Part shown: positions 3,601-60,400 of the stretch, one piece after another
How the letters are laid out: each line of letters starts with the position of its first letter
How positions within the stretch are numbered: position 1 is the first letter of the stretch
Assembly (NCBI GenBank): GCA_032622095.1
Contig: CP136062.1
Span: 165,128,590 to 165,192,589, forward strand
Origin: Siphonodentalium dalli
Taxonomy: Eukaryota > Mollusca > Scaphopoda > Gadilida > Siphonodentaliidae
Reading direction: 5' to 3'
Length of the DNA: 64,000 nucleotides
The notes under the pieces: generated by a model
The model's input: only the letters and a program-made list of their open reading frames with translations
Told to the model about the DNA's origin: nothing
Database searches by the model: none
Translations under genes and position numbers: made by a program

Positions 3601-6600
3601 TTAATCGGATTCGCATTGAAATTTGCGATGCAATTTCCAATTGCTAACCAATTTACATTAAAAAACATGTATTGGTAGGAATACTATACAAAATCTACCC
3701 AGGGCCACAAAATGCTTTACAAATTAAAAAAAATTCACTCGAACCCTGAGCACTATTGTGTTATCGTAAAACTAAGGATATTTTTCAGCTTTTTCACCTG
3801 TTATGGGCACTACCGCTAGTAGGGTCCTGTGAATTGGAGATTTTGATCGAATCAAATATCAAATCGAATTCTGGAAATCGAATCGAATATCGAATCGAAT
3901 CATATATGTGTGTTGCATTCTCAATTGGGCATGTTTTGTCAACGATTAGACAATTTGTGAAACGTTCTATCAACTACATGCACGAAGTTCCATCATAACT
4001 TATGTGGCGATGAACCGTCGTTTACAATACTATTAACTTCAAATGATAATTGTCGAGAAAAAAAGGCAGATTTAAAAAAAACGTCCATGCGGCCGTCACG
4101 ACGATTAATATATAACCACTAAACGGATTATCAGAACTAAAATCACTCAAAATTTGTACAGTTTCCATGTATATACAAAATTGTAAATCGACATTCGGAA
4201 TCACCCGTTGTTATAAACTTGAAGATGCAATAACAGTCGCAGGGTAGCCTGATTATGTTGTGCTGGATGCTTCTTGGACAGATGATTCCATAGTTGGGTC
4301 ATTGTCGCAGATGCCTGCGATTTATACACCAGGTTGCATTCATCTCACGTGTATGTCCTTGCACTACCTGCAGCTTTATCATGTTTAAAATAAACATGAA
4401 TAACGACGACATTTTGTCAAGTGTCAAAGAACTCTCCGAAATTGAAAGTAAACTTCAAAAGAAAACAGCGCCAAAATGCACTTTTCAAAATGTCGATGCC
4501 GGGAACACGTGTTGTTTAAATTCTCAGCTATACTACATAACGCAGAATCTGAGACGGATAGACGGCGGATAACGCTAGCGGTTGCTCAGTCTCATAGCTA
4601 TTATTATTCACGCGCATTGTCGGTCCATCGGTGATCTCGGAGCTTTTGGCTACCATGTTCAAAGCTACAATTCAGGCATATTTAGTAGTCCTATAGTGGC
4701 TAATTGCTAGCTATACTTATATTTAATATATATAATCGCGATGTACAATAAGAATTATAAGGTGCATATATACATCATTTTCTGTAATTAAATGGCGCAA
4801 AAACAGCTAAGATCGACGTGTGTACTTGTCCGTAAACAGCCTACTTTTCCATCAGTGTATATTCGAAATTTCGAGTTGGCAATTTCGAATTTGAGAATCG
4901 AATTTGACTTTCGAATCGAATCGAATATCGAATATTCGCAGGACCCTAACCGCTAGTACCAATTAAGTTACTTATACATTGTTAATTCAATCTGTTTGAT
5001 GAAATATTTGTGGAACTATAAACATATTACATCTAGTATTTTATATAGCGGTACTAGTCCTGAAATATCAACATTTGTTGTTTTGGTTTTCAGACCAAGT
5101 TTGCAGATTTTACAGACTGACTCAAAGCAGCTGACCAGTATGATCTCATTCACGTCAACTCTCGCAGAGAATGTCAGCAGTAAAGTTAGACAACTTGACT
5201 TGGCTAAGGTACTAGTAGTACATACATGTAGTTCAAAATCTGTTAAAATAAAAATAAACTTCTACATTGGACAAGGATTTTACATCCAAATTTTGTCAGG
5301 ATACTGGGCCCATGCCACCAAGCCTCTTCCCTGGTCAGTCAGGACCGAAGTTTAGAATATTCCTGATCAACCATCCGTCGTTCGTCCATTCGTCTGTTCA
5401 TCTGTATGTCCGTCTGTCTGGCCATCTGTCCGTCTGTCTGTCCGTAGATACTTGCTATTCGATTCGATTACTCAAGTATTTTTTATTGGATTGTGTTCAA
5501 ATTTTATGTGCATGTTTATGATGACACACCCCTCACCTGTATATTTTTTGGTATCGATCGGTTGATTGGTTTAGAAATGATTAACACTTTCCATCCATAC
5601 CTGGTCATGTTCTATCTGATGCCATAACTAACATATTTTTTGTCCGATTGTGTTCATATTTTATATGCAGGTTTATGATGACACATGGCTCACCTGTATG
5701 GTATATATTGGTTTATTGGATTAGAAATAATTAACCCTTTCACACACATGCCATCCAAAGCAATAAGTCAAATACGTTTCTTCTGATTTACCTCATATTT
5801 CTTACCTATGTTTTCCTTAGCACACTCTTCATCTGTATGGATTTTGGTTTTGATTAATTAATCCTTATACTCTTGAACCAGAGTTATTAATGAATGCTCT
5901 ATTTGATAGTTTTATACATTAATTAGGTGTGATGTCATGTATGAAGATTTTATTGCAATAGTTGCATTTAATATAATGCTATCAATAATTTATCATATGA
6001 ATATCCAATATGCAGTGTTGAGAGTACATTTCTTATTCATATACCTGTAAGTCCAAAGCCATTTTAATAGCTATATGGTGGAGTGGTGGAAAACTCTATT
6101 AGAAATATAATAATAACATTCCCTCTTGCTAGTTGGAGGCAGACAAACAACACTGGTGATAATTGTTTATCAAAAAGTGATTAATGGAGCTTGCTGTTCT
6201 CAAAGAAGCCTGTCAACATCTGGGTTCTGTGTAGTGTTTGTTTATTTTTATAAAGTCTCACAGTCCTATTTGATGTGCTATTAATCTGATCTCACATCTC
6301 ACTTTACTGCAGAAATGAAGTGATTTTAATAGCCATTTGACAGTGGTGGCCCAGAGTTTATTAACTCCCACATAGGTCTCTGGTTTCTGCTGTTTATAGA
6401 CTTATATCTGTCCAATGATAGTCTATCAATACAATATTCAAGTGACATACCTGGTACAGTGCCCTAATTTTATAGACTTAAAATTATTAACCCTGGTCAT
6501 CAATTTTATGCTATTTTATATTGTTGATTTAATCATTCTATTATATCTCCATGTTTCTCCTCCTTCACTTGCATGGATTTTTGTAGTTAAAACATTCCTA

Positions 6601-21400: not shown

Positions 21401-24400
21401 AATGGGTGCACATCACAATAGCGTTGGGATAGCGTCACTAAACTAATCCTCTGGGGACCTCATTCTGAATATGTCCGGCACCTTATTCTCAGGCCTGAGC
21501 TCGGCAGCTCAATGGTTAGAGCACTCAACGTGTAGTCGATGTGTTGACAGCAACATGAGTTTGATGCTCGCTGGCAGGCTGCTGTGTTTCATAACAGTGG
21601 CTAGGTTTTACGTTCAGCAGAATGGCACTGTTCAAGCTTTGAAATAATGTGTCTATAATTTGAAGAATGAGGTGCCCAGAGGGTGAATTTAGTGACGCTA
21701 TCCCATATGGTGGGCTAGCATCACCAAATTTACCCTCTGGGAACCTCATTCTGCTGAGGCCTCAACTGCTATGGGAGACCTAGGATCAGATTGAAGTTCC
21801 CCAGTTGAAGTTGTTGTTCACCCATTAGTCGCCTCGATAATGCATTTTATCTTCTGCAAATTAGGTGATATAGAAACTTATCAGAAGGGAAAAATTAACT
21901 AAAACCAATGTTAATTTGAGACTATAGATCATACTTCCAAGAAGATGAGGCCTAAGCAGAATGAGGTCCCCAGAGGGTGAATTTAGTGATGCTAGCCCAC
22001 TATAGGGGATATCGTCACTAAATTCACCCTCTGGGGACCTCATTCTGCAAATGACAGATACACTAACTCAAGGCTTGGTAGACAGCAGCATGAGTTTGAT
22101 GCTCGCTGGCGACCTGCTGAGTTTCATAACAGTGGCTAGTTATTGTGTTCAGCGAAATGTGGCTGTTTAGTTATACGCTGTTCAAATGGCTTGTACAAAT
22201 GAGTGGGATAATACTATAATATATAGCGTAGTGTTTAAAAACATCTTTACAATTTGGAGCAAGTAATTTGTTAAGTGCTATATAAAACCATAATTATTAT
22301 TAGCTCAACTTACTTTTGTAAGTTTGAGCTATTGCCATGGTTTGGCGTCCGTCGTCCGTGTGCGTGTGCTTTGATCGGAACATCATGAAATTTGTCATGG
22401 ATGTTAACAATGACATGTAGATGGGAACGAGTCATTTTGGGGTCATTCGGCCCGAAAAACATGGCCGCCAGCAGCCATCTTGGATTTTACTCTTTGCATG
22501 ACTAAATCCTTTGGCGCGGGCTACAGGTCGTAGCTTTGATCGGAACATCATGAAATTTGTCATGGATGTTAACATTATGACATGTAGATGGGAACTAGTC
22601 ATTTTGGGGTCGTTCGGCCGAAAAAGATGGCCACCAGCAGCCATCTTGGATTTTACTCTTTGCATGACTAAATCCTTTGGCGCAGGTTACAGGTTGTACC
22701 TTGGTCTAATCTTTATGAAATTTGTCATGAAGGTTGACATTGACATGTAGATGGGAATGAGTTATTTTGGGGTCATTCGGCCAAAAAACATGGCCACTGG
22801 CAGCCATCTTGGATTTCAAGATTCAATCCATTGGCGTGGGCTACAGGTCGTACTGTTCGTCTCATCATCATGAAATTTGTCATGGATGTTAATAATGACA
22901 TGTAGATGGGAAACGAGTAATTTTGGGGTCGTTCGACCAAAAAACATGGCCACCAGCAGCTATCTTGGATTTTACTCTTTGCATGACCAAATCCTTTCGC
23001 GCGGGCTACAGGTCATACCTTTGGTCTGATCTTTATTAAATTTGTCATGAATGTTGACATTGACATGTAGATGGGAACGAGTAATTTTGGGGGTCATTCA
23101 GCAAAAAAACATGGCTGCCAGCGGCCATCTTGGATTTAAAAATTCAATCCATTGGCGCGGTCTACAGGTCTGATCATCATGAAATTTGTAGGTCGTAGCT
23201 TTGGTCAGATCTTCATAAAATTTGTCATGGATGTTAACAATGACACGTAGATGGGAACGAGTCCTTTTGGGGTCAATTGGCCAAAAAACATGGCCGCCAG
23301 CAGCCATCTTGTATTTTACTCTTTGCATCACTAAATCCTTTGGCGCAGGTTAGACATTTCAATTAGCACCTTTCCTATTCCTCCATTTACTGTCAACCAT
23401 TAAATTATTCCCCTACCTAAGTTGAGCTACAGTGTCATGGATTTTAATATTGACATGTAGATGGGAACGAGTGATTTTGGGGTCGTTCGGCCAAAAAACA
23501 TGGCTGCCAGCAGCCATCTTGGATTTTACTCTTTGCATGACTAAATCCTTTGGCGCGGGCTACAGGTTGTCGCTTTGGTCGGAACTTCATGAAATTTGTC
23601 ATGGATGTTAACAATGACATGTAGATGGGAACGAGTCATTTTGGGGTCGTTCGGCCGAAAAACATGGCTGCCAGCAGCCATCTTGGATTTTACTCTTTGC
23701 ATGACTAAATCCTTTGGCGCGGGCTACAGGTCGTACCTTTGATCCGATGTTTATGAAATTTGTCATGAATGTTGCCATTGACATGTAGATGGGAACGAGT
23801 CATTTTGGGGTCATTCGGCAAAAAACATGGCTGCTGGTGGCCATCTTGGATTTAAAAATTCAATCCATTGGCGCGGGCTACATGTCGTACTGTTCGTCTG
23901 ATCATCATGAAATTTGTCATGGATGTTAATATTGACATGTAGATGGGAACGAGTGATTTTGGGGTTGTTTGGTCAAAAAACATGGCCACCAGCAGCCATC
24001 TTGGATTTTACTCTTTGCATGATTAAATCCTTTGGCGCGGGCTACTGGTCGTAGCTTTGGTCGGAACTTCATGAAATTTGTCATGGATGTTAACAATGAC
24101 ATGTAGATGGGAACGAGTCATTTTGGGGTCGTTCGACCGAAAAACATGGCCGCTGGTGGCCATCTTGGATTTCAAATTTCAATCCATTGGTGTGGGCTAC
24201 AGATCGTACTGTTCGTCTGATCATCATGAAATATGTCATAGATGTTAATATTGACATGTAGATGGGAACGAATGATTTTGGGGTCGTTCGGCCAAACAAA
24301 ATGGCCGCCAGCAGCCATCTTGGATTTTACTCTTTGCATGACTAAATCCTTTGGCACGGGCTACAGGTCGTAGCTTTGGTCGGAACTTCATGAAATTTGT

Positions 24401-27400
24401 CATGGATGTTAACAATGACACGTAGATGGGAACGAGTCCTTTTGGGGTCAATTGGCCAAAAAAACATGGCCTCCAGCAGCCATCTTGGATTTTACTCTTT
24501 GCATGACTAAATCCGTTGGCACAGGTTAGACATTTCAATTAGCACCTTTCCTATTCCACCATTTACTGTCAACCATTAAATTATTCCCCTACCTAAGTTG
24601 AGCTACAGTGTCATTGACACTTTCATGTAAATATTCCGGCGATATGTGTAAATCATTTTGGTTGATACAAATGTACATGATATTTTGGAAAACCGTTCCA
24701 AAAGGAGAAAATAAGTTTCGAAGTGACAATGTTTTAGATTGTATCAATAAATAGTCGTGAACACGTGGAAATTTATTTTAAAATTGGCAAAACGTTATGT
24801 ACTGTTAAATCCATTGAATCAATTTCTCACAAAATAATTCACAGCTCATTTGACTCATGTACATCTCCGATATTTGATAAATACAGTTTTATTTCATTTC
24901 AACTTTCATTTCGGGTACAAAATAATTTGATATGGTGAATACCTGGGATATAAAGGTACCTAATTGACAATATATTAACTCTCAAAATATTTATTTACCA
25001 GGCAGTTGCTATGGATACACAAGAGGAGGGAGTACATACGTCCAGTATGGTTGATGATGCCTTCTACATTGTGAAGAAAAGTATCCGGTATTAATATTAC
25101 TCTTTTATTATCTTTTTTCAAGACTTTATATGTGGACTGCCCAGTGCCTAGAAATGTAAGAGGCTTTATTTTGAATCATGTCTCACCTAAAGCTTATCCT
25201 TTCCATGAACGGAGCTTCCCGAAATTTTGCAAAAACCCTGTGGCAATGCATTCTCTTATATATGCGAGTCTCCCATAGGGATCTTTATTGCCGCACCAGC
25301 ACAGCTCCCATCATTAACTCTTTCGCTGCCAAACGCGCATAAATGCGAACTTCGAAGACGCTGCCAATCGCGCATTTTTGCGAATTTGGTATGTAGTCTA
25401 ATGTATGGGATATAACTCTATTCTTTCCGGCATGTTTGACAGTGTACAATGTATTTATCTGTAGTACTGTTGCGCACGAACAATTTAAATCAACAATGTC
25501 CTCAAGGTCATGCTATTTCTGACGTTATGGGAGTACAGTCAGAGACGGAATATTGCATCATTGTTGTTAGCACATGGTTATCAGTCGAAAATGGCTGCTC
25601 GCAAAAGACTCAGGACTGAAGAAGTTATAGTTACTACCTTTATACTCTATTGATCGAGGAGCGCCTGTGGCGCATAAGTTACTTATACCTATTATTTATG
25701 TGGGCAGTAGCCTCTATAGGGGCGCCTGCGGCGCATAAGATACTATGGGTGGTGGGATGGGGTGGTGGGTGGGTAACTAACCTCTATACTCTAATGATCG
25801 AGGGGCGCCTGCGGCGCATAAGATACTTATACCTATTATTTATAATACACCTTTACTGGTTTTGAACAACCCTTGTCTATTGTATCGTTTTCCAGTGGTG
25901 ATAACAGGCAACTAAATTAATTATGCTGGTGAGTTGACCATGCGTATGCCCGCGTGGTCCATATAATTCACATAAATCATCGTAAAACCCAATTTTCCTG
26001 AAATTCAAGATGGCCGTCAAGATCACGTGACTTATAAGGGGCGGAGCAGGGTCATATGTCCCCCTGCAGGTATATATACACATGGGTATGGTTATATATA
26101 TATATATGTATCTATATTTGGAATTGTACCCTATCAGGGAATATTCAAGCAACAAAAGCACGAACTCAACAAAGTTCGCCATTGTATCCCATTTTGCTAC
26201 AAATAGGTGGCAACTTGCATAAATCCAAGATGGACGCCAAGGTCACGTGACCCTATTTTATGTCCAAAGTGGGTTCATATAGGTTACTCCCGTGTACCTT
26301 ACTGTTGGAATCGTATAATTGGGTTGAAAATTAGAAAACAAACAACACACCCATTCATACCCACACAAACTGTACATATACCGGCAAATAGCCACTAATC
26401 CAAGATGGCCGCCAATGTCACGTGACCTTGGTGGGCGTGTCCATGGCGGCATTCGACAGGGTATACCTATGTCTATATACATGTGAAGTTTCAACTAATT
26501 ATATTAGACACTGCTTGAGATATAATGTATTACCCATATATACCTGAAATACATGGATATATGTACAGGATGCGTGGCACTGGGGGTACGTCTGTGGTGG
26601 CGGGTGGCAGCGAAAGAGTTAAAGGGTTAATTTGGTGGGAAATGTTCAGATAATAAGTTCAACAAATTGCCTATGGGTATTTAAATTTAAATGGGTATTT
26701 AATCTACCTCTCCATAACATTCGAAGAATTTTGAACAAAATGGATGCAAACACTCAGCCATACAATTTCGCAATGATTTTAAATGTACCCTAACAAAGAA
26801 ACTACCTAGTAAATATCCATTAATAGTCCAATGTAATAAGAAGTTATGTCCCGACTGTTTTCCACAATAATATGCCAATTAATACATTTCAAATATAATT
26901 GATAGTCAGAAAATTAAAGGAATAGAATAAAATGAGCCCTCTATATCCACGTACATACCCCCTCAGGAACAAATTGACACACCTCCCTGAGAAAACAAAA
27001 CAATTTTACTTTATTAATATCCAGATTTTCAATGTGGCAGTATAGCAAGTTCTCTTCTTATGCATAAGGGATGTTCAGGAAGAACATACATATCCCAGTC
27101 AAATAACCCAATCCAATAACCTTATTTTATTATTCCTATAGCATAGTTATCTCTCTCTATGTATACTTTGTTATTCTGTTTACTTCGGTTATTTGATGAA
27201 ATAAATATTGATTGATAGTAAAGAAAGGGTGAAAACCTAAAAATAATATTATTCTTGTAGAAGGTCCATCTCTAGCAACAGTGTAGATGGAATATGTGCC
27301 ATGCTGAATCATGCTTGTACAATTCTCGAGGAAGACTTCAGAGAAGTTCTGAAAGGAAAGCTGAGACAGGGATTTCCGTCTGGGTTCGACATCACACAGG

Positions 27401-30400
27401 CCTATAATCTCGTTCACAGCAGCATACAACAGGGAAAACTACAAAGCTCAGACACAGAGAAAGCTCAATCAGCATTCCTGGTGTGTACATAGGGGAGCTA
27501 TACACAATCAGCATTCCTGGTGTGTACATAGGGGAGCTATACACAATCCTGCAAATAGTATGTCTGTCATTTGCAGAATGAGGTCTCTATAGGGTGAATT
27601 TAGTAATGCTATCCCACACAGAGGGCAAGCATCACCAAATTCACCCTCTGGGGACCTCATTCTGCTTAGGCCTCATCTTCTGGGAAGTATCTATAGTTTC
27701 AAATTAACATTGTTTTAGTTAACTTTTTCCCTTCTGGGAAGTCTCTATATCCCCTAATTTTCAGAAGATAAAATTTATGATTGAGATGACTTAAGGGTGA
27801 ACATCACCAACTTCAACTGGAGAAATTCAATTGATTCTAGGTCTCCCATAGCAGCGGAGGCCTAAGCAGAATGAGGTTCCCAGATGGTGAATTTGGTGCC
27901 GCTAGCCTTCCATGCAGGATAGCGTCACTAAATTCACCCTCTGTGGACCTCATTCTGCAAATTACAGACACACAATCTGCAGGCTTGGGTATTCACGATT
28001 TCGAGACTAACTGTATCTGGGAGACATAACAGCCAGTGTAGCCTATGTTAAATGTGACATTACTGGTTTGAGGTGGGTGGGGTGCATTATTAACAGTGTG
28101 GCCTGTGTTAAATGTGACATTACTGGTTTGAGGTGGGTGGGGTGCATAATTAACAGTGTGGCCTGTGTTAAATGTGACATTACTGGTTTGAGGTGGGTGG
28201 GGTGCATAATTAACAGTGTGGCCTGTGTTAAATGTGATATTACTGGTTTGAGGTGGGTGGGGTGCATAATAAACAGTGTGGCCTGTGTTAAATGTGACAT
28301 TACTGGTTTGAGGTGGGTGGGGTGCATAATTAACAGTGTGGCCTGTGTTAACTCTTTCATCACTGAATATCATAGCTACATTTATCCCACAACCCTGAAT
28401 ATCTGGCAATAATATTAAGAAAATAGTATGTGCATGTTATGTATACTATACACTATACTAGTTATTGATACCTATGGCAATCTATGTATTGTCATGTTCG
28501 GGAGATATTGAAGTATCAAATGAGTATGTCTGTGTGACTGTCAATTTGTCTCGTTAAGTAATTACAGGTATAAAACAGGTGAGAACCGGTAACATTTACG
28601 TAAAATCGCCTATTACATCTTGTTTTCTGTTATTTGTGGTGCAATATGAATACTACATCTCTAATATAGTTTTACGTTCATGTTCTACTAAACCTCGGTG
28701 AACCTATAGTCCATTTACCTCTGATATACTGTGCCATGACAACAGGTAGAATACATCCTTTACAGGTGTGGTGTATACAAACATTATCCAATGTAGCATT
28801 ATCAATGAAGGTATTCCTTATCAACTGGGGAAACGTATATAAACTCAACAAATAGGTCTTTATGTATGAACAAGTTGTGTTTTCAATTATGTTCCACATA
28901 TCCTTGTAATCACTGTCACATTCTCCACTATAGAGTAATTACTTATTTTACTTCCATGCTCTGAATTCAGGTCAGACAGTTCATTATCGCTAGAGTTAGA
29001 GTAATCAATTTAGTCTCCACTATGATCTTTATCATCTGAGACAAGCTGTTTTCTGGATATTTACTAACTGCACACAATATATCAAATACACAAACATTAA
29101 AATTCTCAAAGAATTCATCCTCAGAAAACTCGTCACCATCACTATCACCCGATATGTTTATAAATTTAGTTTGCTTGGTGTATGCCTGTTTGGAAAGGAA
29201 TAAAACTCGTTTCTATAACATTTTTGAGATAAAACCAAGTTTATATATTTCCTGTCTATGCTCCAGAATACCCCCACATTAGATAAACTTTAATTGTCAT
29301 ATGTTTGTGATTCAAAAGCAATTTAAACACAGGATGCCTGTGTTTGACATAATAGACCGCTACAGCGGGCTGTCGTGATGAAGCGTAATTGTTAATTTGG
29401 CCGCTACAGCGGGCTGCCGTGATGAAAGAGTTAAATGTGACATTACTGGTTTGAGGTGGGTGGGGTGTATTATTAACAGTGTGGCCTGTGTTAAATGTGA
29501 CATTACTGGTTTGAGGTGGGTGGGGTGCATTATTAACAGTGTGGCCTGTGTTAAATGTTTTTCCGCCAAGGAGAAGCCCTCAACTGAACTATATGGATTA
29601 TTATCCTCGGCCTTGTGTTATCAGGAGGGTTAAAATTTATTGTCCGTATATTGCCTACTCAGATCAATCAGTGCTCGGGATTAGCTACGCATGGATGCGT
29701 CTCGTGTAACTCTCGCGTGATTCTCGCGTTGTAACAGTCAGTTTTTAATTCCTCCTCCAGCTATCGGACGTGGTTAATTTTAAGGAAGTATTATTCTGTA
29801 TTGCGCGTTATCAACACATTATTTATTGTTGATAACAACTTGCAATTTATCCGTTGCTTACCCAGTCTTTTAATAAAAAATTTACGAACTCGCAGAAACT
29901 CTTCGTTTCATTGTATGCGCGAATTCCGTGTTTTCTATCGACACATTTCGTCTACGAATTTGTGCTTGAATTTGACCAAAAAATCGTTGGAATCACGTTG
30001 ACATATTCGCCATTGATGGCCATTTTGACTCAGATGCACATCGTTTACTTATGGCCAACCTATATTGCATTATTGTGCAACATATACGGTGGCATGACTC
30101 GTCGAATTTCGGAATCCACGTGGTGCGGTATGCGGAGTAGCCTAATTTCGCGCTACACATTCTATTTACTGACGTCGTCTCTTCGCCCCGTTCAGGTTAT
30201 GTATACCGCCATATCATATATGCAACAGCTATGTTAGTGCGCAGAACGTTGTCCAGGACAGAAATATCTCCTTTGGCACTAATTTACATGAATAAATAAC
30301 TAAGATAGAACTTGTTACCTGATGTAATTTCCTTTGCCTCAACTAATTGTATTTTGTAAGTTGACGTTGAGCAACTGGAACTTCATCGACGTTTGGGAAA

Positions 30401-33400
30401 TAATTATAGAAGAACATCATTGTACCTATACATTATGTCCTTATCATTAATTGTGCTTAAGCGATTAATATTTGCAAATCTTAGCTAGCCCGTAATGTCT
30501 TAACATGAGGGCTTGTATTTGGATACTTGGAACGTTGGTGCAGATGTTAGTGACTTCACAATATTTATTTGACAATCCTGACTCTGTTCTTGCGATTCCA
30601 TTCACTTTCCATCATTGTATCAATGGAATAATTGTTGGCAACAAGGCGATTCTGTTCGTTATACATCTAGTATTATATGACCTGTGTCAAATAATGCTTT
30701 AATACTATAATAGTCTCTTTCTTTACGTACATGTATAGTATGAGTTGACAGTGTCCGGTTGCTACGACTCGTGCAACTGGTTTGATTGGGGAATAGGATT
30801 ATCAGACACACGATTTGACAACAAGGATTTTCGTTTCTAGTTTACATTATCGAATGGCGATCTCGGTCAAATCATAATCTGACTTTCTCTTGGCGACAAT
30901 TGTGTCCGCTTCTTTGCAATTACTTACTGTATTTTGCTGAATGGGTTCCCCTGTTCCAAGACTGCACGGCCATGCAAGCGCAGTAGCCTGAACCTTCAGC
31001 TATAGTTTGCTTACCTATACAATGTCAATTCCGTCCGTGGTCAGAACTCTTTGGTGACATTTTGGATGAGATCCTTGTTGCGAGCCTACTGGCCTACTTG
31101 TGGCAAGTCGCCTTATCCGATGTGACCTGGCATGAACTGTTATCCTCAGACATTAGTGTATCGATACATTCAACATTCATTTGTCCATTAATCAGGACCA
31201 ATATGGTATCAGTGCATCATCGCCACAAAACCGGTCAATGGTGGGCATGACACATGTATGGCCAGCCGTAATAGTTCCATACCAATGGTATCAGTGCCTT
31301 ACATGCTCAATGACATAAGAACTGACTATGTCAATATGGCGACAATTTTTCACCGATACCGACATACTTCTGCGCTTTCAATCCGTGAATAGTAACGGCG
31401 AACTACTATGCATATATATTGTCACGTGCTCCCGATGCATTGCCAATAGCCTTTCCCACTGAGCCCATCACTTGGCTCTCAACCTTCTATTTCCACATAT
31501 CGAACAGATCAAATGTGAAATAGCCTTCACTCACGTATAAAGCACAGTTACATAACATGCATTTATATTGCGCAGGGCCGCTGCCACTATAATTTTCAAC
31601 AGAGACCAACACATGGCTCTTTTCTTTCTATTGCCTCATATCCAATTGATTATCGGGCAAATAATGAAACGGACAGCATTTGTATTGTCACACAAATTAA
31701 GTGCGTTTACATGAACAGCATTTAGATTGATATTGCGCACGTCCACGGCAGGCCTGCGTATTGGAGGCACACAACGGTTCGGTTCACATGACGGTTGCGA
31801 AATCTAGGTTGCGCCAAGGTTGTGTGAGGCTCTCGCGATACTGATTATAACTGTTTGTGTAACTTATGGGTACCTAAGGACAACCAGAAAGCCGACACAT
31901 ACTAGTATGTTACGGCTTGCGCATATTTTGCATTCCGCAGACCTGCCAGTGCCAATTTCAGAAGAGTCCAAAACATATCTCTTCTCCTTCTATTACTAAA
32001 TATCCATATGATTATCTGGTGAATAGAATACCTAAATGACTAACACAAATGACAGCTTTTGTATCATCACATATATACAGCGCCGTTCCGCAAGAAGCCT
32101 CTATATCGTGTGTATGACCACTGCCCAGTACCAGTGACTGGCGGGGTGCCACTATCGTTGATTCGGAAAACCAATCTTCATGGGCGCACGCCTCAGCACC
32201 TGAGCCTTAGGGTGGGGAAGACTCGTCATGTGCCGCTGACAGCGCACCAGCCAACCAGCCTTCAGTTCTTCTCAGATGAAAATGCAGCTCAAGCTCTCAT
32301 TTTCTCTCACAATTCGGAAGACGGATGTAATTGCATCCGTAATATAATCGTTCGTTGTGTTTCTCTCAAATTAAATGTCTTTGTGGAATAGACCTCGATA
32401 CATGCATGTTTAGTTGCACTTTCACATTCCCATACTTTACCTGCGATGGGACCGGTTTTTAAATATACCTCCAATAGTTGAATATTGATTCAACGGTTAC
32501 TGTAACCATGCACATTTTGTCAAGAGGGAGAGGGCAAAGTTTAATGCTCGTGAATTAGAGACTTACAAGTGCATATGGGTGCGAGTACAATTGCTCCTGT
32601 TGTCTGGGAAGGACTGAGACTTCTGTCTCTTCCCCACGGTCCATGGCCCACTCCATGACGAGAGTGGGTCTTGTCCCCCTGGAATCATTCTCCCTCGGGA
32701 TATGTCCAGGCCTGCTATACCTTCGGAGGACTTTCCGTACACGTATAAAACATTCTCCTCACCGTAAGCAAGGGCACCGCGAAAACTGTTCTTGCACAGG
32801 AGAAATTGGTTCTCATCGTCCTCTTCGCCGAGAAGTGACAATATCTTACCTGCAGTTTAATTTCTAGCAGGTAAGAACACGTGGCCACATAATGAATGGA
32901 ATTTACCTTATTAACATTATTTTGCATTAACTAACAAAATGTTTTATGTATTACGCTTGCTAATAACTAACAGAATGTCTTGCTTATAGTTGACGAGATT
33001 CGACTTTGATGGCCATACACTGTGCGGGTTGCTCAAGAAATAAATGCAGCAATATGCGGTATTGTCATTGTTGGATGAGGGCCCGTTGGTCCATGGTTAA
33101 ACAATTTGAGCTCCAGCCAAAATGCCTTCTGACGCTTCCCCACGGCGCTGTGGCCCACCCCATTATGAGGGTCGGTCTTGTCCCCCTGGAAACGTCATCC
33201 CACGTGATACGTCCAGGCCTGCTCCTCTGCCGTCATGGGATCCTAGTGGTATGTCATCGACGTTGATTCCAGCTTGTCTGGACCACCTGCATTCGGGAGA
33301 TTCGGTGGGGGGGTTTTCTCTGGTCAAATTGATCCTTCTAATTTTATCTTTTTGCTGACCTTCTGGCATTGGGGTGGGCCAAAGCACCTTAACTTCAACT

Positions 33401-36400
33401 GCGAGAGCATTTATACCTCGTTCGAGCCATTCCTCGAGTGGGCTTCCCTATAGTACCTTATCTCAACCTGATGCAGGGTGTTCTGTTGCTGTGGTCGATA
33501 CTGACATGCTTCCTATACTTCTCATGGCGTCTGATGCTTTGACGACGATGGGCAAGAATCACGGGATTCTGTCGTTCCTAAGGAACTCGCTTTGCGTATG
33601 GACACGACATGGGTCGATCTATTGTACAAAACTTCATCACAGGATATGTGTCAACTGACTTACACAAACTTGCACAACTGTACCAGTCTTTACCTCGGGA
33701 TGAACCAGTTCGAGCCCCATGGTCCTGCACCAGCAGTCCGTGGCAGGCGGGGTGCCGTTCTCGGAGATTCGGGCAACCAATCCTCCAGGACAATCGCACC
33801 CGAGCCTTTGGAGGCTGTTCTGTGTGGGGACGACTCGATGTCGCATACTGTCAATAGTGCTTTCTATTTTGGAAGATATCTACAGAAATCACTCTCATCA
33901 CATGAAAACGAGAAGAAGACGCAGTGAAGTCAGCTGCAGAAGAAGAAGTCTCTACTTGCTCAGTTTCTAGCTGGCGCGTATGGTGTGGCACTGCCTGGGA
34001 CATTTCTTCCTAAAACCAGGGGGGGCAGGTACAAGCTTGAGCAATACTGGAATCTGAATTTATGAGCTCTTTCACATAACATATCAAGGCTGATTCATGA
34101 CTAAATCACATTTACATGAAATATGTTTTCGGAAGAGTACATTCCCGTCAAACTGGGATATTAAATTTATTGCTCGTTGCCTCCTCCTGGGCTTGCATTC
34201 TAATCCATATAGTTCAGTTGAGGGCTTCTCCTTGGCGGAAAAATATAATTTTTAAATATAAAATTACTTTTTCCTTAAGGGAAGCCCGAAACTGAACTAT
34301 CAGAGATCCCTCCCATGGCGGTGCCATTCCCAACCCTGCGACTCGCAAATCCTATGATTCGGTAGGAAAATTAAAAACTGACTGTTACAACGCGAGAATC
34401 ACGCGAGAGTTACACGAGACACATCCATGCGTAGCTAATCCCGAGCACTGATTGATCTGAGTAGGCAATATACGGACAATAAATTTTAACCCTCCTGATA
34501 ACACAAGGCCGAGGATAATAATCCATATAGTTCAGTTTCGGGCTTCCCTTAAGGAAAAAGTAATTTTACATTTAAAAATTATATGACATTACTGGTTTGA
34601 GGTGGGTGGGGTGCATTATTAACAGTGCAGCCTGTGTTAAATGTGACATTACTGGTTTGATGGTTTAATTATTTTATGAAACTCTAAAAGTTAACAAATA
34701 AGAAGTGTGAAATTTGAATTTGTGAAATGATTTTGTATTCAGTGCAAGCCAATTCTGTATGTTTAGCTTTAGGAATATAGCCCAATTTCTCTGCCCTGAA
34801 TTTGGTCATCTGCGCTTGCAAGACATTATTTTAAAATTGCTATTATAACAATTTAGTCGATTTATTTCAAAAACTCGACTTATGGTTTGACGAGTTTGTC
34901 TATTTTAGCAATATTATGACCGATAACTTGTACAAACGTCAACTGATCAATTCATTTTTGGTATATGTATCTTTCACAACAATATCTTGATAGATTTCGA
35001 AAACCAGATTTGTTCAATGTTTTTAATACCTGAGTTATGGTTCCCCGATTCGTCCACTTTTAGTGATTCTGGTTTGGACAGATCCACACTTATTGGCAAA
35101 ATAACTTGACAAGTGCCATCTTTGATGTACTACCCTTGTTATATTTTAGAAGTCTGGTGGTTTGAGCGTACAACTTGCACAGTTTGATGTCTGAAGGGGG
35201 ACCATTGAATTTTGCAGCAGTAGCTTGGTCTCAAATTAAGCAATGTCTGATGGTATAGTCACACACTAAATCAAAACTTTTGCATATTTTTATATATTAA
35301 AAATTGAATCTCAAATATTTGCAGGAACCTAATGCAAGGATGTAATTCAAATCTATACAAGAATCTGTGACATCTATTCAGTATATGGTACAAAAACTAA
35401 TGAAAATAATTTAAAAAAAATTAATCAATCATAAATTCCGGGAAGTGTTGACAGCCTTAGTTCTTAAATTTTAATGTCTTCACATGACTTTATAGCCTTT
35501 TCTTCGTTGAAATTTACAGACGACACTGAATAACTGTGAAGTGAGCAGTGACTATGTGAAGGCGCTGAAGACCAGTGTAGAGGTAACTTGCTACTCATCT
35601 GTTAAACCACTAATAAATGGGTAAAAAGTACACTGTTATTCTAAAATGTAGACATGCCAGCTGAATTATCTGTTATCTATTATTTGATATTATTTATTCG
35701 TCTGGTTGGCATCTGCTTATTATCCCCCGCCAAATTTAAAATTTGCGGGGTATATAGTAATGGGTTCCGTCTGTCCGTCCATCTGTCGTGCCGTCTGTCC
35801 CGAATTTGTAAGAGTCATAACTTGAACAAATGTCAACGGATTTCAAAGATTTGTGGTATATGAGTTCACCTGACCACTACCTAGAATGAGTTCGCAAGCC
35901 AGGTCCGGCCGGATATATTTACCGCAGTTATTGAACTTTGTTTATTATTTTTGTCGAATTTACCAAATAGCAAATAGACGACGTCACAGGGCTCATTTCC
36001 ACAAATGTCAACGGATTTCAAAGATATTTGGTATATGAGTTCACCTGACCATTACCTAGAATGAGTTCGCAAGCCAGATCCGGCCGGATATTTTTACCGG
36101 AGTTATTGGACTTTGTTTATTATTTTAGTCGAATTTACCAAATAGCAAATAGACGACGTCACAGGGCTCATTTCCACAAATGTCAATGGATTTAAAATAT
36201 TTTTGGTATATGAGTTCACATGACCAGTATCTAGAACGAGTTCGCAAACCAGGTCCGGCCGGATATTTTCAGCAGAGTTATTGGACTTTGTTTATTTTTT
36301 TGTGTGCAAATGGATGACGTCACAGGGCTCATTTCCACAAATGTCAATGGATTTCAAAGATTTTTGGTATATGATTTCACATGACCAGTATCTAGAACGA

Positions 36401-51400: not shown

Positions 51401-54400
51401 TTACAACATGGACAATCAGAGATAAGTTTGCCCGACTCACTCAAATGGCGACAGTTCTCAATCTGGAGAAGGTATGTAAATGGGCGATCAGTCTGATTAA
51501 CACTTTACCCAACAGAACAGCCCTGTGCCAATGCATTCTCTTATATATGCGAGTCGACCATAGGTCGCCTCACATATATAAGAGAATGCATTGGCTTAAC
51601 ACATATTAAAAATGATAAAATTGTCAAAGAATGCAGAAAAATATTATAAATATTTTTTTAAATGTAAGAATTTTTTTTTTTAGGCCAATACATTCTCTTA
51701 TATATGCGAGGCGACCTATGGTCGACTCACATATATAAGAGAATGCATTGGCACAGGGCATAACTGTAACCATCACAATGTGGTCAATGAACCGGTTCCA
51801 ATGATATCCATATTTGTATGGTGTTATTGAGACAGAAGATATTTTAGGCTGTTGAAGCTTTATTTGGGCGTTTTTGGCCGTTTTGTTGGGTAAAGGGTTA
51901 GAGAAGTTTGCTTGGGATATAGAAAATGTGTTCTGTCAGTCTGTGTGTCCGTCCATTCTTAACCTTTCCATGACTGGATCCTCCTGAAATTTTGTGCAAA
52001 CACTGTGCCAATGCATAGGTTGCCCGCATATATAAGAGAATGTATTGGCCTAACAAATTTTATGTTATTTTTTATAATTGTTAAAAAATGTAACAAAAAG
52101 ATAATAAAAAATTCTAAATTTAAAGAATGTAAGAAATAATGATTAAAAAAGGATAACATTGTTAAAGAATACAAGAAAAAATGATAAAAATTGTTCTAGT
52201 GTATAAGAAAAATTATTTTTAAAAATGTTAAAGATTGTAAGAAAAATTGATAAAAAAATTGATGTGGCCAATGCATTCTCTTAAGTATGCGAGGCGACCT
52301 ATGGTCAACTCGCATATATAAGAGAATGCATTGGCACAGGGTCGGCTCAGTGTAAATCCCTCATTGTTGGGGGTACTCTATGTGGTGCACTTGTTCTACA
52401 ATGGAGATTCTCTTCATGACATATTATCTTGCAAAAATTCTAAGGCTTTTTTCGGGATACACTAAAAGGAAATCTGTTTTAAAGGATGCTGTTGTGGATC
52501 TTGTTGATGACAGGCATAACAGCCACGACAGATGTCCATAAAGCCGAAATGCTGAACAAATTCTTCAGTAGTGTTTTTCCGCCAAGGAGAAGCCCTCTAA
52601 AAACTATATGGATTACGTCTCCGGCCTTGTGTCAATCAGGAGGGTTAAAATTTTATTGCTGTGCCGACCCCACTCACACCCGTGTCCAGATTAGTCTCGC
52701 ATGAATACACCCGCATTCTATCTATTGTCTAGTCAGTTTTTAATTCCTCCTCGGCAGGACAGGATCGTTTCTATTTCTCAAGGTTGTATCTTACTGTGTT
52801 GCGAGTTTATCGACTCAATATTTATTGTTGATATTACAAACTTGCAATTTATTGTACCCGATAGTTAATTAATATTTCTCACATCCGAAAAGGGAACTTT
52901 TTTCGTTTCACTGTATCCGTATTTGTTTCCGTGTTTTTTGTTTTCCTCAAGACGGCTTTATCTTTCAACAATTGGAATTAAGATGGCCATCTTGACAATG
53001 ACTAAAGAAGCACATAGCTTACTTGTGGCAAAACCACATAGTGCATATTGTGCCACACATACGGCGTGATGACTATCATGACTTACAATTGAGGACGCAA
53101 TGTAGTACGGTATGCGATATCTCCTAATTTCGTGCTACACGTGTTTCACTTTACATAAGTTTCCGTCGACTCGCTTCGGTTATTTCGTAAGTTCCGTTGC
53201 TTTGTATCATAATGTATACTGCCAAATCATACATGGCACTGCTCTGTTAATTTGCAGAAAGTTGCACAGGACAGCAGGGGGCGGTAATATCCTCCTTTCT
53301 AATAATTGACATGAATAAATACGAAAGATAGTACTTGTTATCAGATGACATTTCACATAATTTCTTTCGACTGAGCGATCTGTAACATTGTTTTAACGAT
53401 CAATACCTGCGAATCTACGCCCGCCAGTATGTATGAGCGTGTGGTCTTGTCTTAGACACATGGCAAATGTAATAACACATTACATCGACTTCAAGGTATT
53501 TAGAAAATTCTGCCTTGTCTATCACGATTAAATATCATATAACTCATTGTATCATCAGTACAATAGTTACTAACACTCCGTAACAGGGGGATGGTATTCG
53601 TTATCACATATATAACCACACTTCAAATTGATGTGTTGTCTGACGTTCTAAATATTGTGTTGCATTCTTTACATCCATGTATGTACAGTTTGGGTTCCTA
53701 CGAACTGCAATGAAGTGAAAACTTTGTAGCCTGACACTAAGCCATCTTACCGTAGGCTCTAATATGCCTCGGCATGGGCGAGCTTGCAATAATGTATTGC
53801 ACGCCGTAATAATTCCATACATTGTACATGACAATCATATGGTATCAGGGCCTCATGTATGCTGTCAGAACTGACTACTAGTATGCTTACATATGGTGAA
53901 CAGTTTTCGTCCCAATACTGACATACTTTGCAGTTTCATCAGTGAATGATAACGGCAAACAGCGAAATAGAAAGAATACATATTGTCACGTGCTCCAGAT
54001 TCACTGCCAATAGTCTTTCCAGTAGAGACCATCACTTGGCTCACTAACTTCTATTTCCACATATATCAAAACGATATTCTGCCAAATAGCTTTCACTCGT
54101 GTATGATGCGCAGTTACATGCAACACATTTATATTGCGCAGAATATCAGAAAGGACTGCATTTGTATTGTTACATGTCTAAAGCGAGCTTACATGCGCAG
54201 CGTTTATATTGCGCACATCTACTGCCAATATATTTCCGAAACCGGCCAAGACATGGCTCTTCGTCTATTGTCACATATCCACTGATTATGTGACAAAACG
54301 ATTCGATACAATCATGCCGAAAATGAAGGCATTCGTATCTTCACGTCCGCTGTAAGCGCACTTTCCTAACGGAAACCGCCTAGTTCTTGCCTATGTGCAT

Positions 54401-57400
54401 TCGGAACTCATCGTCCTCATATACGAGAAAAGACAGTATCTTACCTGTCATAGCAGGTAAGATCACGTGGCCAGGGGTATAACGTGATTTTATATTAACC
54501 TTACTTTATACTCAATAACCTAGGTTGTATTGTGTTATGTATATTAACCTTGCTTTGTTATAACTAACAGCATGTCTTGCAGTCGAACATGATTCGAATT
54601 TGATGGCCACACACCGTGCAGGTTGCTCATTCACGGGTGTATTACTTGTTATAGTTGGGTAAGGGCATATTAGTCAATGATTACCTACTTTGAGCAACCG
54701 TACCAGTCTTTACCTCGGGCAGGACCAGTTCTGGCCCCCCAGGTCCTGCTACGGCAGTGTGAACCAATGGTAGGCGGGTGCTGCAAGTGGTTGATTCGGG
54801 AAACCAATCTTCACGGGCGATTGCTCCGGCACCTTTCTCTCAGGTGCCTAATGGTAGTGGCAATACGATTATTAAATTTCGAAAAAATTCACATCGATAT
54901 ACTATTATTCCACATAGAGTGAAATTTCCATCAGTATTTTGATTTCGGCCTGGATTCCTGCCACGAAGATCTGTTTATAGGCCACCACAATTATTGGGCA
55001 CCTGGGAGTAGCCTTTGGCGGCTGTTCTGGGTGGGGAAGACTCGTTGTCACGTGACGCTCTTGCTCTCATAGACATAGCGCACCAGCCAAATGGCCTTCT
55101 GACTCTTCCCCATGGTGCAGTGGCCCACATCATTACAAGATGGGGTCCAGTCGATCCCCTGGAATCGTAATACCTTCGGGATACATCCGGGCCTGCTCCT
55201 CCGCCGTCATGTGATCATAGTGGTATGTCATCGACATTTATTCCAGTTTGGTCAGGACCACCTGCATTTGGGGGATTCCATGGAAGGGGCTTCCTCTGAT
55301 CAAATGGCTCATCAGAACTTATTCCCTCTGGCCTTGGGGGCGCAGCTTGATGATGCCCCAGAATTTGAGGGGGTGACCTTGGACAGGACATAGCTACTTA
55401 TCCCAATTGCAAGAGCATTTGTCTTGCGTCGAACCATTTCAGAGTAGGCCTCTTCCACAGTCTGGTATCCCAACCTGATGCAGCCAATTCTGTTGGCTGG
55501 CGTCGATCTTGACATGCTTCTCTGCATCGCGTGGCGTCGGCAGGTTTGACGACGATGAGCAAGAATCGCGGGTCGACAGTGGGTCGCCAGGCACACTGTC
55601 GGACGAGGATTCTGATGTTCCGCTGGTAAGTGATTTTGTACAGGATGAGGATACAGGTTGATATCTTATATTGCTTCATTTAATTCAACAATCTGCGATA
55701 AGTACAAGTATTTATCTCAGTCAGGAAAGATCCAGCACTGTAGCCTTTGGAGGATGTTCTGGGTGGGGAAGTGAAGAGTTGTTGCGTGCCTCCAAGAGCT
55801 GCTCCAGCCTTCTGCCTCTTCCCCACGGTGCAGTGGCCCACATCTCCACAGATGGGGTCCAGCCACTCCCCTGGAATCGTACACCTTCGGGATACCTCTA
55901 GGCCACTCCTCCACCGGTAGGCTGAATGTTCTGGGTGGGGAAGACTTGTTATTGCGTGCCTCCAAGTGCTGCACCAACCAACCTTCTAACTCTTCCCCAT
56001 GGTGCAGTGGCCCACATCTCCACAAGATGGGGTCCAATCCCCTGGAATCGTAATACCTTAGGGATACCTCCAGGCCACTCCTTCACCGGTAGGAAAGAAA
56101 GGCTGAATGATCTGGGTGGGGAAGACTTGTTGCGTGCCTCCAAGAGCTGCACCAACCAGCCTTCTATCTCTTCCCCACGGTGCAGTGGCCCACATCTCCA
56201 CACGATGGGGTCCAATCTCCTGGAATCGTAATACCTTCGGGATACCTCCAGGCCACTCCTTCACCGGTCATTTTGCAATTTTGATCATTCTGCTACATTT
56301 GATCATTTTGAAATGTACCCGACACTCGTTATGTGCGCCATCATAGATCACTGATGCTTCTATGCTTGTTCATCAAGTCCTCAGTGGTGTTCTCTAATCC
56401 CATATATACTGGTATGCAATGATACCTTGGATCATGATGGCGTTCCCTGCTCTCTACATTATACGAGGCTGGAGTACAGATGTGTGGCATGATATAATGA
56501 AACCTCCTACCTCGCTATGTTATCTGCAGCATATCATTTTTATATCTGGTTTGTGTATCACAGGGAGCAATTTACTTTCGATATCTGATTAGCAAATAAT
56601 CTCACATTGACATGATTAGATAGCATTTTTATAACATCATACATGTATAAAAATTTCCTCGCTATTACCGGTATCCACATTTCAGTGGCAAATCGCGATG
56701 CGATTCCAGTTAATTTGCTCCCTGGTGTATCATAAGCATTCTGATATCTTATGGCATACACAATGGCTGCATGTGACATCAGTTCATAATGTGAACTGTC
56801 GAGAGAGCGAAGAAGATAACAAAGAGAATAGGATGCAGCAAAGTTATACTTGCTCGGTTGTCTCGCTAGCATGAATTATATGGCACTACCTGGGATGTTT
56901 ATTCCAAAAACAAGGGAGGCGGGCGGTACACATTTGAGCAATGTCGTAATCTGAATTGGGAGCTCTTTCACGTAACATAATCATATCTGATTAATGACTA
57001 AATCACATTTACATGAATCCTGTTTCGGAAGAGTACATTCCCATCGAATTTGGATATTAATTAACTTTATTGCTCGTGCCTCCTCCTGGGCTTGCATTCT
57101 AATCCATATAGTTCAGTTGAGGGCTTCTCCTTGGCGGAAAAATATAATTTTTATAATTAAAATTACTTTTTCCCTTAAGGGAAGCCCGAAACTGAACTAT
57201 CATAGATCCCTCCCATGGTGGTGCCATTCCCAACCCCGCGACTCGCAAATCTCATGATTAAGTCGGAAATAAAAAACTGACTAGACAATAGATAGAATGC
57301 GGGTGTATTCATGCGAGACTAATCTGGACACGGGTGTGAGTGGGGTTGGCACAGCAATAAAATTTTAACCCTCCTGATTGACACAAGGCCGGAGACGTAA

Positions 57401-60400
57401 TCCATATAGTTCAGTTTCGGGCTTCCCTTAAGGAAAAAGTAATTTTAATTATAAAAATTATATATTTATGCAAGAAAACCTTAACCCTTTTAGTGCCAGG
57501 GGCCGATCTCATCGGCCCTAATTTACGGTCTGTAAAATCGGCCCTAAAAAAAAATTTTAAAAGGGTTTTTTTTTTTTTTTTTTTTTATAGATTTTTTTTT
57601 TTTTTTTTGGGTTGAATTTTTTTGGGGTATGCTTAAGCATGCTATGGCGAATTTAAAACAAACTGGTTAAAACCATAGGGGTATGTTATAACTCAAAACT
57701 ATCACCAAGTATTCATAGTAATAATTTTGATGCCCATGAAAAACGTAAGATTCCCTGGCACTAAACCTACAAAATAAGTCTGTTAAAGAATATAAGAAAA
57801 AATTATTAAAATTGTAAAAAATAATAACAAATGATGAAAAATTGTTAGGCCAATGCATTCTCTTATATATGCGAGGCGACCTATGGTCGACTCGCATATA
57901 TAAGAGAATGCATTGGCACAGGGTATACAGGTTGATACAAAAATCTGACCTGGCACTGAAAGGGTTAATACCACACCACACAAAGAAAACAGAAATATGA
58001 ACTCGTTCACTCCTGATATCATTATCACCCAATGTGCAGTGGACAACTGTTTACTCACGCTCAACCTGTATAAAAGCCAAGGTCCGGACGAAGTGCCAAC
58101 TAGATTACTCAAGGAGTGTACTCAATTTTTGAGTACGCCTTTGTGTATGTTATTCAATAAACTCTCAAAAGATGATAAATTCCAGAAGTGTAGAAAAATG
58201 GCAAATATTGCAAGTTTATACAATATGTCTTACACACATCCTGATCTGATAATCTTCTGCAACATTTCAGAAATCAAAATGGTGAATACAAGATATATAG
58301 CGGATTTACATAGAGATGTGGAAATAAAAAAATTCATCTATGTAAAGCAACCCTACATTTTCAGTGGATGGAATTTGGCCAAATAACAATATTGTAGGAA
58401 TTTTATCAGTATCTTTATGGAACATTTAATATCGTTCTGTTTTTATTTAAGGTCAGTGAAATCTCAGATTATTTTGGACCAAACTCCGGCCCCCTCACAT
58501 GGCGCCTAACTCCAACTGATGTCAGACAGGTCCTCTCCCTTAGGTGAGTATAAAATCCCTTACAACTGCATCAAGGGCCTCAACTCAGCTTTGGGGGCCT
58601 CAACTGAGATTCTTTGTTGTCGGCATCAAAAGAGTCATACTTTTAGTCTGCTGTATTTTGTGTATTATTGTTTTATTGAGCGACCTGGGAGGAAGATATA
58701 TAATATTATCAATCAGAAGTGAATATGTGATAATGAAAATTACCCATATTAAACATGAACAGGTTACTTGCTCACCAACAGTATTTTGGTTGTACAGTAA
58801 TGCCCTAAGAAATCGACCCCTTAACCACAGCAGAATTATGGGTAACTTTTCAGGATTTAGTCGGAAATATGGCTTGTTGCCATTCATCGGAAAGCTCTCC
58901 CCGAGAAGCTCTCAGTGATTACTTACGGCATTGCTGTATATTGGTATATCATATACATGTATGTCATGAAATGGTGTCATTATCAATGGTAGGTATGACC
59001 ATTTGAAACACAGTTATTTAGTACCATGGGAACCTGTGCACCTGCAATAATGAGGTCTGTCTGACTTTTTTTTTTGTTATCCCCCTTTTTCTCAAGATGC
59101 ATAATTTTGTCTGTGGTTTTATTCCTACATTTTTCAGTCAATTTTGTTTAAACTTGGCACATATGTATTAGTGCTGAAACGGATATCCGGTTGACAACCG
59201 GCTACTGTCAGCAACCGGTTGAACTACGATCAACCGGTTAACCGCTATGTATTACACACATGCAATGCCACTGATAAAAACTAACATATTCAGGTCCTTA
59301 ATCGGCATAGACTGATAACAGTAGCTTTTAAACACGGGTACTTTATAAATTTTGCTACAAACGTTATCACTCTCAGGGGGGTATACATTCGAAATTACGC
59401 ATATTAAAAGTCAAAATCTGGTGCCAGATCAAGTCTTCCATGAATGGCAGATTACATAGTCTGGCATTAGCCGGTAAACATCAAAGATGCATGACGTCAT
59501 CTTTGATGTTCCGATGTCTGGTAAAACATGTGCACTGACGCCACTGGGTCATCGGCAAAGATCAATACACTCGTTTTCACTGCAGTATACGGCGTGGTCA
59601 TTTGACATCTACTCTCCGACTGACTACTTGTAGATATTATCATGGATACCCAAGAAATTAGTAAATCAGATGTCTGGGCACATTTCAAAGAGAAATTGGC
59701 AGAATGCAAACTCTGAGATCCAACCCTATTTACATACGCTCGGTCTATACTTCTAACATTACTGAGTTTGAGTAATCTCAGTCGATGAAGTTCAAATGAA
59801 CTCGAATCAAAATGGTGTTCCCCTGCAGTCGGACTTATTTGCATCCTAATGACTAATTCTCAGCATTTGATTGTCTTCTAACAGAAAACAGTGTTTTTAG
59901 CAGGTTTTCAGCTGTTTTTTTTTAATTTTCATTTGTTAACTACATAAAGTTCACAAACTTCATAATTGTGTTTATCGGTCGTCAGTCATCCTATCTATCT
60001 AAAATCGCCAAAGAACACCCAGCGGTTAGAATACCTGAGTCACATGACTTAATAATCGGCCAGTCCCGCAATCGCTATAATGGCAATACAAAACTGTCGA
60101 TATTTGCATGCATGAACATGTATATAGGTCACACAATATTCTTCCCAAAATGAAAACGATAAAAAGTCAGGTAGCAGTCGCAACTGCAGTACAAATAGGT
60201 CAAGCATGACACGTCTATTTATAAACACTGCGAGTTTTAGTTCACTGTGTCATCTGCCGAGTTGTCAACACGTGGCTTTGTGACGTTCATGTTTGGTGAT
60301 TTACATTCATTTAATACAAGCTCTGGTCGGTGTAAACATTACGCGAGTTTGCCATACAGTTAATAAATCAAATTATGCTGATATATTGGTACAAATTATA

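Follow-up and report, generated by a model that had tools for sequence, protein, structure and literature searches.

Two insertions of a large, probably gene-less and non-autonomous retrotransposon with DIRS1-type termini in the scaphopod Siphonodentalium dalli

Organization of the element

The 64,000-nucleotide stretch of Siphonodentalium dalli DNA analysed here (assembly GCA_032622095.1, contig CP136062.1, positions 165,128,590 to 165,192,589; hereafter the window, with positions counted from its first nucleotide) includes two copies of a mobile element, copy 1 and copy 2, whose parts are listed in Table 1. An initial annotation, which did not report copy 2, had described copy 1 as a DIRS-like element with inverted terminal repeats (ITRs) and an internal complementary region (ICR), a description that is borne out by the ITRs and by the joint of the two tips. 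Its bounds, 29558-34583, were correct to within one base; on the other hand, the joint, which had been placed at 34201-34310, stops at 34300.

The outer inverted repeats of copy 1 were found by the repeat search at 29549-29750 and 34369-34570 (202 nt, 93% identity). The left tip (29555-29600) pairs with the reverse complement of 34201-34246 (46 nt, 98%) and the right tip (34527-34584) with that of 34243-34300 (58 nt, 98%). These two tip complements overlap at 34243-34246, and the joint that they form spans 34201-34300. In copy 1 the 11-nt motif AACTGAACTAT recurs in each ITR and each ICR; the left ITR of copy 2 has it in altered form. When the left 400 bases were compared with the right 1000 bases, the best inverted 40-mer matched at 40/40 positions in each copy, while the maxima in 100 mononucleotide shuffles per copy were 30 (copy 1) and 26 (copy 2). 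The DIRS1-type terminal anatomy of the element at 29558-34583/4 is therefore confirmed.

Blastn comparison of the element with the window revealed the second copy, at 52574-57462/3, on the same strand and with identical anatomy. Its ITRs are 144 nt long and 99% identical in the repeat search, and its left and right ICRs match the tips at 39/42 positions with one gap and at 58/58, respectively. The initial annotation would have been refuted by a lack of copies with a matching tip junction; copy 2 has the same one. A 21-mer tip motif is found four times in the window, where 0.01 occurrences are expected, namely at the left tip and in the joint of each copy, and the ITR-ICR-ITR plan with joined tips is present in both of the two copies. 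Beyond both elements and their near flanks, the remaining 51.2 kb of the window contained nothing further that resembled copy 1 at E below 0.001; the whole-window blastn adds just 60-bp repeat arrays, which are part of the query.

Table 1. Coordinates of the two copies, their parts and the target of copy 1 in the window
Feature	Position	Strand	Description	Evidence
Copy 1 of the element	29558..34583	+	5026 bp, shared T counted once	Junction analysis, repeat search, blastn
Copy 1 left terminus	29558..29750	+	Divergent ITR of ~24 nt, conserved ITR onward to 29750	Repeat search, alignments
Copy 1 left ICR	34201..34243	+	Reverse complement of left tip, 43/43	
Copy 1 right ICR	34243..34300	+	Reverse complement of right tip, 57/58	
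Copy 1 right ITR	34369..34559	-	Conserved part 34369-34534, 165/166 vs left arm	Blastn, alignment
Copy 1 right extension	34560..34584	+	~25 nt, complementary to right ICR only	Alignment
Copy 1 interior	29751..34200	.	Apparently non-coding	No open reading frame beyond shuffles, no Pfam domain above cut-off
Copy 1 interior module, unit 1 of 2	32617..32722	+	Unit 2 at 33123-33229	Alignment
Copy 2 of the element	52574..57462	+	4889 bp	Blastn, repeat search, junction analysis, alignments
Copy 2 left terminus	52574..52746	+		Repeat search, alignment
Copy 2 ICRs	57100..57200	+	97/100 vs copy 1 joint	
Copy 2 right ITR and right extension	57267..57463	-		Repeat search, alignment
Host 60-bp tandem repeat receiving copy 1	29430..29557/8	+	Resumes at 34585	Repeat search, junction analysis

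Insertion sites

The junctions read AAATG-T / T-GACATT in copy 1 and AGTAGTG-T / T-ATTTATG in copy 2, and on the complementary strand the joint has the sequence ATTATA-T-TTTTCC (ATTATA-T-TTTTCCGCC). Both insertions are precise, with one T common to the target and the tip junction; in copy 1 this T is nucleotide 29558 at the left boundary and 34584 at the right one. The junction triplets are the same in both copies: TGT on the left, TAT on the right and TAT in the joint. The presence of TGT and not TAT at the left end, observed in two cases, may reflect target choice or repair.

When the flanks of copy 1 are rejoined they generate GTTAAATGTGACATTACTGG, i.e. the host 60-bp unit, and the 20-base junction string is found exactly in seven of the eight other pattern-matched units and with one difference in the eighth (28227). 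The 60-bp unit forms two arrays, at 28034-28351 and 29430-29558, which are ~1.1 kb apart and the second of which hosts copy 1. A short direct repeat, CCGCTACAGCGGGCTG(T/C)CGTGATGAA, is present at 29357-29426 just left of copy 1 as two copies 44 bases apart.

The flanks of copy 2, once rejoined and freed of a nested element with TTAA ends (57481-57968), define an open frame of 108 amino acids. This frame stays open at net length changes of 0, -3, +3 and +6 and is broken (36-49 amino acids) at -2, -1, +1, +2, +4 and +5, the test being blind to changes in multiples of three. No target-site duplication was seen at copy 1, as judged against the tandem unit, or at copy 2, as judged against the open frame, where multiples of three are undetectable. 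Conservative recombination at a single T common to element and target, with no duplication, could thus account for both insertions, and since no duplication was seen the junctions speak against a DDE transposase.

The frame flanking copy 2 looks LINE-like by eye, judging from a motif. Copy 2 and the TTAA element divide it into two pieces, at 52470-52574 and 57969-58180, the right-hand one of which was not recognised by Pfam. The TTAA element, which is presumably piggyBac-like judging by its ends, is 488 bp long, has the inverted tips TTAACCCTTTTAGTGCCAGG / TTAACCCTTTCAGTGCCAGG and is inserted into the same LINE-like frame, 17 bases right of copy 2. On either side of copy 2, at 52025-52342 and 57812-57930, are palindromic hairpin units (TATGCGAGGCGACCTATGGTC...GCATATATAAGAGAATGCATTGGC) in inverted and direct copies, the right-hand one sitting within the TTAA element.

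Conserved and drifting regions

The two copies are very unevenly related along their length. Their joints match at 97/100 positions, the spacers from joint to right ITR at 58/66 and the 290 bases before the joint at 223/281, and the 5' interior is far less alike, with 359/533 aligned positions identical in 632 columns. In 50-base windows along the 3' block, identity peaks around the joint (47-49 of 49-50) and drops to 23-26 of 38-41 within the right ITR. Overall, copy 2 contains alignable sequence for 3445 of the 5025 bases of copy 1. The interior bodies have common modules that differ in order and number, as illustrated by a ~100-bp unit with two occurrences in copy 1 and four in copy 2 (starts at 55095, 55806, 55981 and 56157). 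Folding of six units of this module gave no convincing structured RNA (z -1.99 to +0.19), and Rfam had no matches in the window at gathering scores. The joints do fold strongly (z -7.9 and -8.8) because the two tips are inverted copies of each other.

The ITRs show a different pattern. Within a copy the conserved parts of the two arms, trimmed to the inner limit of the match, are identical at 165/166 positions (copy 1) and 142/145 (copy 2); wider spans running past the inner end give 158/166 and 136/152, and the trimmed figures are those used here. When one copy is compared with the other, identity falls to 100/143 positions for the left arms (25 gap columns) and to 92/144 for the right arms (24 gap columns). 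Arms that are near-identical within a copy and divergent between copies thus evolve in concert. This is most simply explained if every replication cycle copies one arm anew from the other, and if both insertions are young compared with the split of the two lineages. The terminal repeats of copy 1 had been called almost identical, which the conserved part upholds, and its insertion recent, a view that the near-identical ITRs support unless the arms were homogenised in place.

Search for coding sequences

The longest stop-to-stop frames are 133 amino acids in the interior of copy 1 and 121 in that of copy 2, lengths that were reached by 46 and 62 of 200 shuffles, respectively. No Pfam domain scored above cut-off in translated pieces (10/27 of at least 60 amino acids per copy) or in the six frames of either copy with stops masked as X, which cover the region from the inner ITR end to the joint. 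The initial claim that the element has no recombinase or reverse transcriptase (RT) frame therefore holds as far as Pfam and frame length can tell. The interiors gave several matches below cut-off (WND 0.068, IFT80 0.033, zf-C2H2_3rep 0.054, Nod_GRP 0.12 and chlorite dismutase 0.47), all of which are weak. As a positive control, the same X-at-stop scan recovered a COG4 exon match of 46 amino acids. That exon, at 4957-5352, matches Pfam COG4_N (E 2.6e-9) and is part of a host gene.

The comparison between copies did not reveal the footprint of a protein either. None of six aligned blocks, which total 1,885 positions, showed codon-phased divergence (p 0.14 to 0.98), and of the 42 gaps seven have a length divisible by three. 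Among 111 translated pieces of copy 1 of at least 30 amino acids, many match copy 2 in several frames and on both strands, as expected from DNA similarity alone; the best two (E 8.4e-22 and 3.4e-20) come from opposite strands of one 3' block. Since the ITRs differ by just ~0.6-2%, genes present at insertion should remain legible, and both copies were probably gene-less when last inserted.

Elsewhere in the window, tandem repeats of ~165 bp with similar units (ATCTTGGATTTTACTCTTTG...) are found at 22381-24520 and 60706-61195.

Nature and proposed replication of the element

These results add to the initial annotation a second insertion, base-exact empty sites, a concerted change of the ITRs and a joint that is fixed in a drifting non-coding body. 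Taken together, they make it very likely that the element is a non-autonomous retrotransposon of large size whose cis anatomy is of the DIRS1 type, and that both copies belong to a gene-less family and inserted recently. We class it as non-autonomous, with the cis anatomy of DIRS1, and not as a full DIRS1-like retrotransposon, because the coding features tested were not found; mobilisation in trans by a partner is proposed because genes were not detected.

Several observations weigh against this interpretation. Only two copies are known, both from the 64,000-nt window, and in this part of the genome, which is what the analysis covered, neither an autonomous partner nor a transcript or circle came to light. 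The left end differs from the joint at the middle base, so that ends, joint and target share one T and not three bases, and the left tip of copy 2 has drifted from its own joint, as its left ICR indicates. In-place gene conversion between the ITR arms could equally keep them alike and mask their age. The Pfam control covers a normal exon and not a decayed DIRS gene, and the LINE-like flank was also missed.

The last two points bear on the idea that these are two decayed autonomous DIRS copies, whose gag, RT and recombinase genes have rotted beyond recognition since insertion. Their length of ~5 kb is close to the autonomous average of 5160 bp given in the available text of PMC3266345, and 36 of the 75 DIRS families of Xenopus tropicalis are, according to excerpts of PMC9210276, degenerate to some degree. 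However, ITRs that differ by 1/166 and 3/145 indicate little change since insertion, so that the genes should be readable, and there is neither a frame beyond the shuffles, nor a Pfam domain, nor a codon phase between copies. The ITR argument disfavours decay unless the arms were homogenised after insertion by gene conversion, and we regard this explanation as unlikely. An autonomous element with proteins that are very divergent or intron-rich, and for this reason unseen by Pfam, is a still less probable explanation. The unrecognised LINE-like flank would be in keeping with it, as would the sequence shared by the interiors, in which more than half of copy 1 aligns in copy 2. On the other hand, the longest frames of both copies are within the range of the shuffles, few gaps are multiples of three, and substitutions are without phase in all six blocks.

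The long inverted terminal repeats and the apparent lack of genes would also fit a non-autonomous inverted-repeat DNA transposon of the DDE, foldback type, whose internal complementary copy would be the product of a chance rearrangement. Such an origin seems highly improbable: the joint is kept at 97/100 while the ITRs match at just 64-70% of aligned positions between copies, it combines the two tips head to tail, as a circle would, and neither insertion shows a target-site duplication, with the blindness of the copy 2 test to multiples of three noted above. Finally, the position of the copies on the same strand, 18 kb apart, could suggest a single insertion followed by segmental duplication, in which case they would not be independent insertions. 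We give this possibility almost no credence. One copy is flanked by a 60-bp repeat array and the other by a LINE-like frame, and each has a precise junction of its own; the ITR arms are alike within copies and not between them; and no common flank beyond the tips was found in the whole-window search or in a second search that skipped the stretches adjoining the elements.

A gene-less DIRS1-type element could replicate as follows. It would be transcribed, and a DIRS RT supplied in trans would copy its RNA. The ICR, in which both tips are joined end to end, would then template the tip sequences and align the ends into a circle, as in the published DIRS model. That model, in which the ICR templates lost ends before circularisation, is not fully proven according to excerpts of a 2017 review, which also mentions that circles have been reported (PMC5633606). 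A tyrosine recombinase, also provided in trans, would cross the circle joint with the target at the single shared T, producing the junctions described here without duplication. In each cycle one ITR would be rewritten from the other, leaving the ITRs alike within a copy while copies diverge.

As the interior holds no detectable genes, constraint would fall mainly on the tips, the joint and the nearby 3' sequence. We lean towards the view that the two copies represent a separate class of DIRS elements, large and gene-less, which has long persisted as its own lineage and whose body shuffles modules and diverges while the tips, joint and adjacent 3' sequence stay fixed. If this is correct, the contrast between fixed and drifting parts maps the minimal cis signals of DIRS replication by natural footprint, and the ITR pattern indicates that in every cycle one ITR serves as the template for the other. 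ITRs that are near-identical within copies and divergent between them, together with the conserved joint, constitute natural evidence that fits the ICR-template model. The pattern of conservation also singles out a short 3' segment as a candidate cis signal, and the base-exact pre-insertion sites of the two insertions bear on the position of the crossover.

Comparison with known elements

Large retrotransposon bodies that lack the usual genes and are mobilised by a partner include the LARD elements and Dasheng of plants and TOC1 of Chlamydomonas. The LARDs and Dasheng are of the LTR type, and TOC1 is on the split-repeat PAT side. The split direct repeats of the VIPER/SIRE, Ngaro and PAT types (A1-internal-B1-A2-B2) were not found here, the terminal repeats being inverted; direct repeats at the element ends reflect the tip motif within the joint, and the remaining ones are interior modules or flanking arrays. 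Relatives in viral contigs were sought with the tip 21-mer and two joint strings, with no matches for any of them. A 19-mer matched 54 bacterial loci in genome contigs; blastn of both copies against all 54 at E below 0.01 gave only 21-22 nt matches to the tip motif (among the best 10 of 225, with E up to 10), and these were dismissed as chance.

Among the literature matches listed, which consist of titles and the beginnings of abstracts, there is no gene-less or non-autonomous DIRS1-like family with ITRs and ICR; Repbase and most subscription papers are outside this coverage, and a precedent may exist. The available portions of PMC8498967, PMC12477816 and PMC8969392 mention DIRS and contain no such gene-less family. 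The nearest element found in the literature is SIRE, a gene-less derivative of a tyrosine-recombinase retrotransposon, described in excerpts of PMC6681497 as a truncated non-autonomous form of VIPER of ~0.43 kb that consists mostly of VIPER's own ends, and which would move in trans. Unlike the element described here, which has a non-coding body of ~4.5 kb of no recognised origin, SIRE has split direct repeats and no ITR or ICR (PMC6681497).

The closest structural likeness is to the DIRS1-like elements. The Xenopus DIRS families and Dictyostelium DIRS-1 encode gag, RT and recombinase, as stated in the available text of PMC9210276 and PMC5633606, respectively, whereas no gag, RT/RH/MT or recombinase was detected here. 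Another difference concerns the terminal triplets: in the accessible part of PMC3266345, 23 of the 28 published DIRS1-like elements start and end with NTT and some have unlike start and end triplets (its table 3), and the ends here are TGT and TAT with TAT in the joint, one T being shared with the target. By the definition given there (PMC3266345, Piednoel et al. 2011), DIRS1-like ends comprise ITRs composed of a divergent and a conserved part, an extension on the right and ICRs that overlap; ITRs and ICRs have a motif of 10 nt or more in common, and there is no duplication. The initial annotation took the joined tips for a DIRS-type signature, and except for the middle base of one junction triplet the termini agree with this definition, as excerpted, part by part: the ITRs are divergent on the outside and conserved on the inside, a right extension follows, two overlapping ICRs lie beside the right ITR, no duplication is seen, and in copy 1 an 11-nt motif recurs in each ITR and each ICR. 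The dimensions are also comparable, with a divergent part of ~24, a conserved part of 145-169, an extension of ~25 and ICRs of 43 and 58 nt here, and 26, 140, 26 and 40-58 for the corresponding parts of AcDIRS1 as given in PMC3266345.

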